From Natronomonas halophila (lineage in GTDB: Archaea > Halobacteriota > Halobacteria > Halobacteriales > Haloarculaceae): a stretch of DNA of 64,000 bases. The translations under genes and the position numbers were made by a program. Below the pieces are notes generated by a model. That model worked only from the letters and a program-made list of their open reading frames with translations. It was not told the origin of the DNA and searched no databases. Shown in pieces: positions 9,352 through 54,088 of this stretch. Within the stretch, counting starts at the first letter, position 1. Every line of letters starts with the position of its first letter. The stretch lies in the NCBI RefSeq assembly GCF_013391085.1, contig NZ_CP058334.1, forward strand, positions 1,116,001-1,180,000, given 5' to 3'.

Positions 9352-9500
9352 GAACTTTTTGCACGGCGAGCCTACGGCTCGCCGGCAAAAACTTCGATGA
9401 AAAAGACACTTCGACCCTCCCTCCGGTCGGGTCTCGGTCCCCCGCCTCGCTTCGCTCGGCGCGGTGAACCGCTCGCTCACTTCGTTCGCTCGCGGACGCT
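9352..9500 (+). repeat. mosaic palindromic intergenic element, type B copy 1
   Basis: The element begins GAACTTTTTGCACG. TTTTTGC (9356-9362) pairs with GCAAAAA (9385-9391) around a CGGCGAGCC/GGCTCGCCG stem. The type-B linker TTCGATGAAAAAGACAC follows, then a GACCC/GGGTC hairpin, a hairpin with loop TCGCTTCGCTC, and a last hairpin opened by GTGAACCGCTCG that ends CGCGGACGCT. It lies between the 5' end of the DUF373 gene and the 3' end of the lipoprotein gene. Confidence 0.8.
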
Positions 9501-10183: not shown

Positions 10184-10335
10184 TACGTGTGGGAAGGCGA
10201 TTCTCGCTCATTAGTCCGTCGGCCCGGAGATACCGCGATTCCTTTTAAACCCCTTACACCGTAGCCCGCAAATCCCGCCCGCAGAAATCCACAACGCACG
10301 ACTTTTCCCGCTGGGTGGATAAAGGGGAACAACGA

Positions 10336-11334
10336 ATGATTTCGAAGGGCTGTGAACAGTGCGCCGTGGGCGGCAAGATGGTACTCTTCGTCTACGGGTA
10401 CTGCGACCAGCGTGACTGTTTCTACTGCCCGCTGGGCGAGAACCGCAAGAACGTCACCCAGACGTACGCCAACGAGCGGCCCATCGAGAACGACGAGGAA
10501 ATCATCGAGGAAGCAAAGCGCATGGACGCGCTCGGCTCCTCGATTACCGGCGGCGAACCGCAGGAAGCCATGGAGAAGACCTGCCGATACATCGAACTCC
10601 TCAAAGACGAGTTCGGCGAGGACCACCACATCCACCTCTATACCGGCATCACGGGCGGCCGCGAGAACATGCGCCGCCTCGCCGAGGCCGGCCTCGACGA
10701 GATTCGCTTCCACCCGCCGCTGGAGTTGTGGGGCGACATGCACGGCACCGAATGGGAGGAGATTCTCTACATCGCTCGCGAAGAAGGTCTAACGCCGGCC
10801 TTCGAGATTCCGGGCATCCGCGCGGAACCGGAGTTCCTCGAATTCCTCGATGAGGGCGCCGCCGACTTCTGTAACATCAACGAGTTCGAGATGTCCGACG
10901 GGAACTACCGCCGGATGCAGGAGGAGGGCTTCGAACTGCAGGAAGACCACATGTCCGCCGTCGAGGGGTCGAAGGACGACGCAATCCTGGAGGACATGGC
11001 CTCCCACGAGAAGGTCTACTTCTGTACCTCGGTCTTCAAGGACGCCGCACAGCACCGCTCGCGACTCAAGCGGATGGCCCGAAATATCCAGCGGGAGTTC
11101 GACGAGATTACCGACGACGGCACCATCGTCTACGGGAAGACGTGGGTGACCGAACAGCGCCTCGACGAGTTGGGCGTCCCCGAGGAGTTCTACACCGTCA
11201 AATCCGACCACGTCGAGTTGGCGTGGTGGCTCCTCGAGGAGATGGTCGAGGACGGCGACGTCGAGGACGGCGAAATCGTCGAGCAGTATCCGACCTACGA
11301 CGGGACCGTCGTGGAACGGACGCCGTTAGCGTAG
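10336..11334 (+). CDS. radical SAM protein, COG2108-like
   Basis: The 332-residue protein carries a cysteine cluster CDQRDCFYC, spaced CX4CX2C rather than the classic CX3CX2C. TGGEPQEAMEKTCRYIELLKDEFG (the GGE motif that contacts SAM), ITGGRENMRRLAEAGLDEIRFHPP and FEIPGIRAEPEFLEFLDEGAADFCNINEFEMS follow. These match archaeal PflA-related COG2108 proteins of unknown substrate. An extra CxxC (CEQC) sits at the N-terminus. ATG at 10336 was preferred to a GTG at 10315. The last codons (DGTVVERTPLA) recur downstream at 11432-11467 as a second, synonymous copy. Confidence 0.8.
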   Translation: MISKGCEQCAVGGKMVLFVYGYCDQRDCFYCPLGENRKNVTQTYANERPIENDEEIIEEAKRMDALGSSITGGEPQEAMEKTCRYIELLKDEFGEDHHIHLYTGITGGRENMRRLAEAGLDEIRFHPPLELWGDMHGTEWEEILYIAREEGLTPAFEIPGIRAEPEFLEFLDEGAADFCNINEFEMSDGNYRRMQEEGFELQEDHMSAVEGSKDDAILEDMASHEKVYFCTSVFKDAAQHRSRLKRMARNIQREFDEITDDGTIVYGKTWVTEQRLDELGVPEEFYTVKSDHVELAWWLLEEMVEDGDVEDGEIVEQYPTYDGTVVERTPLA

Positions 11335-11340
11335 AGGGAA

Positions 11341-11430
11341 CATCCGGCCGATCGTAGCGAGGCCGGCCTTTTTCATCAACGTTTTTCAAGGAGTGGTCGC
11401 GCGTAGCGCGACCCGACGCCGAAAAAGGTT
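11341..11430 (-). repeat. truncated mosaic palindromic element (type B-like)
   Basis: On the plus strand it runs from CATCCGGCC through CTTTTTCATCAACGTTTTT, a GGTCGCGCG/CGCGACC hairpin and GAAAAAGGTT. Compared with the full type-B copy in the same orientation at 53941-54088, it keeps the outer CATCCG end, the CTTTTTCATC linker and the T5/A5 framed hairpin, but lacks the two central hairpins. It lies directly between two copies of the radical SAM gene tail. Confidence 0.6.
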
Positions 11431-11431
11431 G

Positions 11432-11467
11432 GATGGTACTGTGGTCGAGCGGACGCCGCTGGCGTAA
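11432..11467 (+). pseudogene. remnant second copy of the radical SAM gene 3' end
   Basis: Translated in frame, this 36-base stretch reads DGTVVERTPLA and a stop, identical to the last 11 residues of the gene ending at 11334. The two DNA copies differ at 9 of 36 positions and every difference is synonymous or stop-to-stop. It therefore looks like the tail of a diverged homologue rather than a recent duplication. It has no start codon or body. Confidence 0.7.
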
Positions 11468-11544
11468 TCGATTGATTTCCCCTGCTGGTTCTGCAAAACT
11501 GCCACGGCCAGTATCCCTTTTGTACCCCCAGCGGTAGGGCCGCT

Positions 11545-11811
11545 ATGGCAAACGGTGGGCCACCACTCTTGGGGCTGCTCGGCATCGGCGAGGACAATCG
11601 CGTGCCGGCACGCGTCGACCTCCACGACGACCTGAACCTCGTCGCCGTCGTCGACCGACTCGAACTCGGTGGCATACTCTTCCTCGGGCAACTGGTGATA
11701 TTGGGCCTGCTGACGAACCTGCCGACCACCGCACAGGTCGGTATCGCCGGACTGGTCGTAATCGCGCTGGACCTGTTCGACCGGAAACTGCTGACGAAGT
11801 ATCTCGATTAG
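11545..11811 (+). CDS. small membrane protein, hypothetical
   Basis: The 88-residue protein has a soluble N-terminal part (residues 1-45: GIGEDNRVPARVDLHDDLNLVAVVDRLEL) followed by two hydrophobic helices, GGILFLGQLVILGLL and AQVGIAGLVVIALDLF, and a short charged tail. It overlaps the 3' end of the convergent membrane-protein gene by 4 bp. The family is not recognised. Codon use matches its neighbours, so it is probably a real haloarchaeal gene. Confidence 0.6.
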   Translation: MANGGPPLLGLLGIGEDNRVPARVDLHDDLNLVAVVDRLELGGILFLGQLVILGLLTNLPTTAQVGIAGLVVIALDLFDRKLLTKYLD

Positions 11812-32527: not shown

Positions 32528-32800
32528 GAACTTTTTGCACGGGTCGGCTTCGGCCGTCTGCTCGCGGGCCGCAGGCCCGCTCGCATGGTCCGAGGGACCT
32601 TCGGTCCCTCGCTACCCGGCAAAAATCCATGCGAATCGCCGGAGGCGATTCGCTGGATGACGAGAGTCGCCGGCGGCGACTCTCGAACCACTTCGATGAA
32701 AAAGACACGGCGGCCCTCCCTACGGTCGGCCCTTGGTCCCGCGCCTCGCTAACGCTCGGCGCGGAGAACCGCTCGCGCCCTTCGGGCGCTCGCGGATGCT
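32528..32800 (+). repeat. mosaic palindromic intergenic element, type B copy 2 (expanded)
   Basis: The outer blocks match copies 1 and 3: GAACTTTTTGCACG, CGGCAAAAA, CTTCGATGAAAAAGACAC, a hairpin opened by CCGCGCC/GGCGCGG, then GAACCGCTCG and CGCGGATGCT. The first arm is enlarged by three extra hairpins (loops around GGCTTCGGCC, GGGCCGCAGGCCC and GGGACCTTCGGTCCC). Two further palindromes (CGAATCGCC...GGCGATTCG and GAGAGTCGCC...GGCGACTCTC) sit before the linker. It lies between argS and the tandem Usp gene. Confidence 0.8.
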
Positions 32801-53940: not shown

Positions 53941-54088
53941 GCATCCGCGAGGCGCGCGAAGCGCGCCGAGCGGTTCACCGCACGAGCGAAGCGAGTGCGG
54001 GACCGAGACCCGACCGTAGGGAGGGTCGACGTGTCTTTTTCATCGAAGTTTTTGCCGGCGAGCCACAGGCTCGCCGTGCAAAAAGTTC
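53941..54088 (-). repeat. mosaic palindromic intergenic element, type B copy 3
   Basis: Read on the minus strand: GAACTTTTTGCACGGCGAGCC, loop, GGCTCGCCGGCAAAAAC, TTCGATGAAAAAGACAC, a GACCC/GGGTC hairpin, CCGCAC/GTGCGG around TCGCTTCGCTC, then GTGAACCGCTCG with a GCGCGC/GCGCGC hairpin and CGCGGATGCT. Its CGGATGCT end faces that of the type A element 69 bp away. The T5 arm points at the prenyl synthase promoter. Confidence 0.8.

Follow-up and report, generated by a model that had tools for sequence, protein, structure and literature searches.

A duplicated gene end behind a radical SAM gene of Natronomonas halophila, probably one of a family of small tail-carrying insertions in haloarchaea

The window, i.e., the whole stretch of 64,000 nucleotides analyzed here, lies on the 3.2-Mb chromosome of the haloarchaeon Natronomonas halophila and contains a radical SAM gene whose coding end occurs twice. 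The gene (positions 10315 to 11334, forward strand; GTG start in the open reading frame [ORF] list, alternative ATG at 10336; Pfam PF04055, E value of 2.4e-9) is present in 48 of 60 relatives. It closes with tail 1, its last 12 codons (11299 to 11334, forward strand; GACGGGACCGTCGTGGAACGGACGCCGTTAGCGTAG, the first base being the G at 11299), and a second copy of these codons, tail 2, follows on the same strand (11432 to 11467; GATGGTACTGTGGTCGAGCGGACGCCGCTGGCGTAA). Direct reading confirmed the observation of the first-pass annotation that both tails encode DGTVVERTPLA-stop and that all of their 9 differences in 36 bases are silent. Which of the two ends is native, and how did the other come to stand beside it? 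The proposal had been that the gene body was replaced by a relative's allele, with the exchange ending at a truncated element between the tails and the old end left behind.

The 97 bases between the tails hold no gene and consist of a hairpin terminator and a hairpin element. Sequence and fold place a terminator-like hairpin, CCGGCCGATCGTAGCGAGGCCGG, with a T-run directly 3′ of the stop codon (11335 to 11373, forward strand), and this is counted here as part of the putative inserted unit. The element that follows (11377 to 11431, forward strand; core pattern at 11381 to 11426) reads CAAC-G-TTTTTC-AAGGAG-stem-CGACGCC-GAAAAA-G-GTTG and was recognized by pattern search, folding, and covariation of its outer stem. 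The 97-nucleotide stretch folds better than 200 of 200 shuffled versions (z = −3.6), and the element fold (11376 to 11431) has a z of −4.6; Rfam covariance models gave no match at an E value of ≤1 within 11280 to 11560. “Truncated” describes the element only in part: the hairpin part on its 5′ side is shorter than that of the genome's own high-copy relatives, but its 3′ end is the usual end of the family (GAAAAAGGTTG). Tail 2 begins 97 bases past the stop codon, which is no multiple of three, so that it is out of phase with the gene. The next gene in the ORF list (88 amino acids; 11545 to 11811, forward strand) is syntenic behind the radical SAM gene in four other genomes (G001, G009, G015, and G018). 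The spacer between the two genes is 210 bases in the window (11335 to 11545) and about 550 to 1,250 bases in these four genomes, with gene order kept.

The element belongs to a family. Its core pattern was present in 100 of 392 haloarchaeal genomes in an order-wide pattern search, and the general form is CNAN-G-TTTTTC-RAGGAG-stem-CGACGNN-GAAAAA-G-complement, a long hairpin with CNAN on the terminator side. Elements are short and noncoding and have inverted ends; no short target duplication was seen at them. The matches listed, restricted to those with 250-base flanks, comprise 178 distinct elements, i.e., at least 178 copies, and among these the outer four bases vary from copy to copy yet are complementary in 157 (shuffled mean, 62; maximum, 78). 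A second case in the N. halophila genome, L002, lies behind a gene that we take from its sequence to be aminopeptidase-like and has the order tail NGTFRFEDGFGG-stop, element, tail NGTFRFEDGFEG-stop. The main high-copy repeat of this genome, which ends GTGCAAAAAGTTCG, has no duplicated gene tail; it was considered as a tail-duplicating candidate and rejected, as examination of 30 loci with the broader motif gave a duplicated tail only at L042 and L051, the two cases already known.

Tail duplication is a general property of the element family. A repeat of the upstream sequence lay no more than 25 bases from the element 3′ end in 60 of the 178 elements (among the matches listed, 250-base flanks), while the other 118 had no duplicated tail by the same test. 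The cutoff score was 22; 887 mismatched control pairs had a 99th percentile of 19, with five highest scores of 23, 23, 30, 43, and 44. The element of the window scored 19, below the cutoff, and stands outside the 60. Duplications lay at the end of an ORF of at least 90 codons in 55 cases, the other 5 being without such an ORF, and the longest duplicated coding tails comprise 77 codons. Likeness between the tails stops at the stop codon in 42/55 (identity of <50% over the 30 bases beyond) and continues past it into the terminator in 11/55; at L080, L159, and L254 the duplication extends through the terminator as far as the element or into it.

The predominance of silent differences extends to the family. 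If tail 2 of the window had drifted freely from tail 1, the probability of nine silent changes out of nine would be ∼1e-5 or less in simulation (0 of 200,000 runs all silent without transition bias; 5e-6 to 1e-5 with it), and even if only four changes had fallen on the free copy, all would be silent with a chance of 0.004 to 0.01. Across the family, 48 usable tail pairs (the 55 minus 7 loci dropped by eye for a doubtful frame or a noncoding match; first three codons at each junction excluded from the counts) had a pS of 0.208 and a pN of 0.029. The pN/pS ratio was 0.22 over all 55 pairs and 0.11 in the 16 most diverged of the 48 (pS of ≥0.2). Neutral decay of a duplicated tail was ruled out by the silent bias in both the window simulation and the family pairs. 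The pattern instead supports a history in which both tails would have spent their divergence inside working genes, and we propose that tails differ mainly at silent sites because the inserted units come from other lineages. No silent difference was present in 20 of the 48 usable pairs; these, together with the 11 duplications running past the stop codon, may fit plain duplication at insertion or later conversion equally well.

Which tail is native can be approached where relatives are closer. In a gene presumed from its sequence to be ileS, the first tails of G250 and G229 differ by 1.1%, compared with 7.5% for the bodies and 12% for the second tails. Tail 1 of both is nearest to G243 and G113 (11 to 14%), with other tails >20% away, and the terminator behind it resembles that behind the single tail of G243. 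The second tails are nearest to G172 (8%) and group with G172, G024, and G281, as do the bodies. A sliding comparison placed the switch to near-identity within ∼30 bases of the codon that starts tail 2. By sequence comparison, the ileS body in G250 and G229 is judged native; tail 1, terminator, and element are judged foreign; and tail 2 is judged the displaced native end. The junction filler GCAGCC is common to ileS of G250, G229, and G326; in G326 both tails are of the genome's own type and are each other's nearest, and a foreign tail is not identifiable.

The radical SAM gene itself gives a second case. In G192 and G177, of the Haloarcula group, the first tail encodes an unrelated C terminus, SASN.QSEQSAVGD, and the second encodes the usual one, NGADAGRATADD; the insert (tail, stop codon, terminator, and element) is 217 bases in both. 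G149, a close relative of G192, is without it. Between G192 and G149, 570/600 bases match in the body (95.0%) and 190/200 match in tail 2 with its flank (95.0%), compared with 67/90 in tail 1 (74%); the corresponding values for G177 and G149 are 553/600 in the body and 177/200 in the second tail with its flank. On this measure, the gene in G192 and G177 has a native body, a foreign tail 1, and a displaced native tail 2. The second tails of these two genomes differ by 6 silent changes and no others, and they would therefore have been functional until late. The inserts are 92.6% identical between G192 and G177 and the bodies are 92.7% identical, which also fits one old insertion that might have been lost in G149. 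A foreign tail 1 between a native body and a native tail 2 was found, then, in two genes (ileS and the radical SAM gene) and four genomes (G250, G229, G192, and G177).

Second tails behind the radical SAM gene are scattered. Of 59 distinct orthologue tails, 9 are followed by a second tail and the other 50 have none within 700 bases. Among 80 loci from named genomes the count is 10, with examples from Haloferax, Halobacterium, Halomarina, Halorussus, and Haloarcula rara; H. rara belongs to both sets. The named-genome search gave 11 regular-expression hits, of which L468 was taken as a chance match; junctions at L425, L449, L457, L460, L476, and L477 were read by eye, and L457, whose element is shortened, is a remnant. 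The second tail starts at the same Asp-Gly-Thr codons in the window, in G055, G040, G296, and G255, and in four Haloferax genomes. Behind the second tail of Haloferax prahovense (L463) and Haloferax massiliensis (L465) there is a further T-run, at L463 with the same element start as well, which suggests repeated entry. Further genes are struck repeatedly, and entry at the same codon with the same junction filler recurs within a gene in different species. Tandem units are present at L222, L234, L201, and L282. In a third gene, presumably AIR-synthase-like from its sequence, tails 1 and 2 of G299, G326, and G348 group within species or with the same neighbor, and a foreign tail is not identifiable.

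Several parts of the first-pass reading gained from these comparisons. Protein selection on both tails is backed by the simulation and by the low pN/pS ratio of the most diverged pairs; the orphan tails that it had suggested looking for beside other copies exist, at the 60 elements above; the breakpoint at the repeat falls at the 3′ end of the element; and the idea that the second tail is an old native end left behind is borne out by ileS in G250 and G229 and by the radical SAM gene in G192 and G177, and by analogy may extend to the window. Replacement of the gene body did not hold, as the body is native in those four genomes and the window gives no sign of it: fourfold-site divergence of its radical SAM gene from eight relatives is 0.29 to 0.42, like or slightly below that of seven neighboring genes (0.31 to 0.56). 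Recent import of the whole window gene was ruled out on the same figures. The set of relatives gave no close one with an empty site for the window, fourfold-site divergence being ∼30 to 45% throughout, and the 36 bases of either tail are too few to place it (4 to 10 differences to orthologues for tail 1 and 5 to 8 for tail 2, about equal). For these reasons the history of the window is read by analogy and is presumably the same as in the resolved cases, with tail 1 as the copy brought by the inserted unit and tail 2 as the displaced native end.

We consider it probable that the window carries one member of a family of small, noncoding mobile cassettes of haloarchaea that insert with a copy of a gene tail and displace the native end. 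Such a cassette would comprise the 3′ coding end of its target gene, a stop codon, a terminator hairpin with a T-run, and a hairpin element of 55 to 70 bases. It would enter inside the gene, a few to ∼80 codons ahead of the stop codon, so that the host gene would end in the cassette's tail and terminator and its own end would be left as an orphan just 3′ of the element. Spread may proceed by recombination across tail homology, e.g., by a single crossover of an excised circle of tail plus element or by break repair. Such a circle could pop out because the tails form direct repeats, and integration through tail homology would suffice in principle because both borders fall in the stretch common to tails 1 and 2. 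The first junction between element and tail in each gene would have been made by some further activity, and later conversion between tails may blur the record. No recombinase, circle, or carrier was found for the unit, and a search of 72,556 plasmids gave no match to the window unit. A bolder version, which we advance tentatively and think doubtful, is that these are enzyme-less selfish cassettes that spread between haloarchaeal species like a homing allele, at one entry codon, keeping an essential gene working through a recoded tail with a terminator and orphaning the native end. Silent recoding of the carried tail may then protect an occupied gene from reentry, because several loci with identical tails carry tandem units.

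Other histories deserve weighing against the resolved loci. Ordinary homologous exchange could have swapped a stretch of the gene for the allele of a relative that carries the element behind its stop codon, with the exchange stopping at the element and the old tail remaining beyond it. Silent-only divergence would follow, as would the usual end of likeness at the stop codon (42/55), and there is a common junction at L175, L203, and L191, where the first tail of L203 is L175-like and its second is L191-like. The exchange nevertheless offers no reason why its left end should coincide with the first codon of the orphan tail, or why one codon should be struck recurrently in several families, and bodies are native up to the junction in ileS and the radical SAM gene; we regard it as unlikely. 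Allelic exchange and conversion between tails do seem, from the sequences at such loci, to act after insertion as well. At L175 the second tail equals the first, and its comparison with L203 suggests such conversion.

Conversion also enters a less probable history, in which insertion of the element duplicates a long target site (tens to >100 bases) at the host's own gene end and conversion with allelic recombination then makes the copies diverge silently. The pairs that lack silent differences (20/48) and the repeats at L080, L159, and L254 that include the terminator would be expected of it. A duplication of the target should not, however, end at the stop codon in 42/55 cases although the tails are alike, nor give the foreign tail 1 of G192/G177 and G250/G229, and a free copy should have decayed, yet pN/pS is still 0.11 in the most diverged pairs. 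Very improbable, in our estimate, is that tail 2 is itself selected, e.g., as an alternative terminus of the gene or within a conserved RNA, in an old and inherited double tail: second tails are intact with silent changes only, and junctions are common to species of one genus, but presence does not simply follow kinship (G149 is without the insert of its close relative G192), 50/59 orthologue tails do without a second tail within 700 bases, and tail 2 of the window is out of phase with the gene. A cassette inserting with a tail copy remains the history that we prefer.

There is a real chance that the tail-carrying cassettes, akin to known 3′-end insertions, form a class distinct from them. Diversity-generating retroelements also place a second copy of the 3′ end behind a gene, with adenine-specific differences, whereas the differences between the window tails are silent, of mixed kinds, and not confined to adenines. 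Integrase-type genomic islands likewise form direct repeats over the 3′ end of a gene, which is restored by the element's copy (as in ileS and the radical SAM gene and, by analogy, the window), but they encode their own integrase, and there is no gene in the 97 bases that separate the window tails. In thaumarchaeal integrated mobile genetic elements (iMGEs), as described in PMC6563490, entry is into the 3′-distal part of conserved protein-coding genes, with an own stop codon brought and the original displaced, direct repeats at both ends, and tandem insertions. These iMGEs are large and gene-carrying (integrase or casposase types), generally with short attachment sites (PMC6563490), in contrast to the haloarchaeal unit of ∼100 to 330 bases with no gene and a tail, as long as 77 codons, that is recoded or even different.

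Like miniature inverted-repeat transposable elements (MITEs), the haloarchaeal element is short and noncoding with inverted ends. The small mobile repeats (SMRs) and MITEs of Haloquadratum walsbyi, going by the description in PMC3119063, are similarly haloarchaeal, short (∼80 to 110 bases), with inverted ends, no transposase gene, and a strong target preference. They differ in that they are reported to make no target duplications and to enter the palindromes of other mobile elements; the SMRs insert in near-terminal palindromes of PATE/IS605, while the neighbors of the 60 tail-bearing copies here are gene ends and terminator-like hairpins. The sections of PMC3119063 consulted make no mention of tail copies. 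REP/BIME sequences, as described in parts of PMC3733652 and PMC2817692, are short, high-copy intergenic hairpins with nested and tandem forms, which also occur here, and are set apart on that description by the displaced coding tails that accompany the haloarchaeal element. A literature search gave no account of gene tails being duplicated beside haloarchaeal hairpins; it covered open-license papers only, so that the absence is weak.

If true, the cassette reading would explain the orphan second tails behind genes that are common in haloarchaeal genomes and, as far as searched, apparently undescribed. It would provide a readable record of interspecies gene flow at conserved genes and show a way for an element of some hundred bases to invade coding sequence without breaking it. 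The C termini of some conserved proteins would be changed by such insertion, as for the radical SAM protein in G177 and G192, and the enzyme or recombination route that moves the unit is a clear experimental target.

Some minor observations concern the elements themselves. Copies of the TTTTTCATCNANGTTTTT motif lie in the window at 9387 to 9404 (reverse strand, exact), 54036 to 54053 (forward strand, exact), and 32686 to 32703 (reverse strand, two mismatches), and the whole genome has 46 copies at up to two mismatches. At L071 (G002:C1:2763331-2763672) three elements stand in tandem at 142-base spacing, as almost identical units with no evident coding tail. At L150 (G001:C55:1-1100) there is a near-identical duplication around an element variant, in which a one-base difference shifts the frame between the copies near a stop codon. 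Elements appear to insert into one another: at L341 (the ileS locus of G229) and L153 (G015), a second hairpin of ∼60 bases sits inside the element's internal loop, following CGAG/CAAG.
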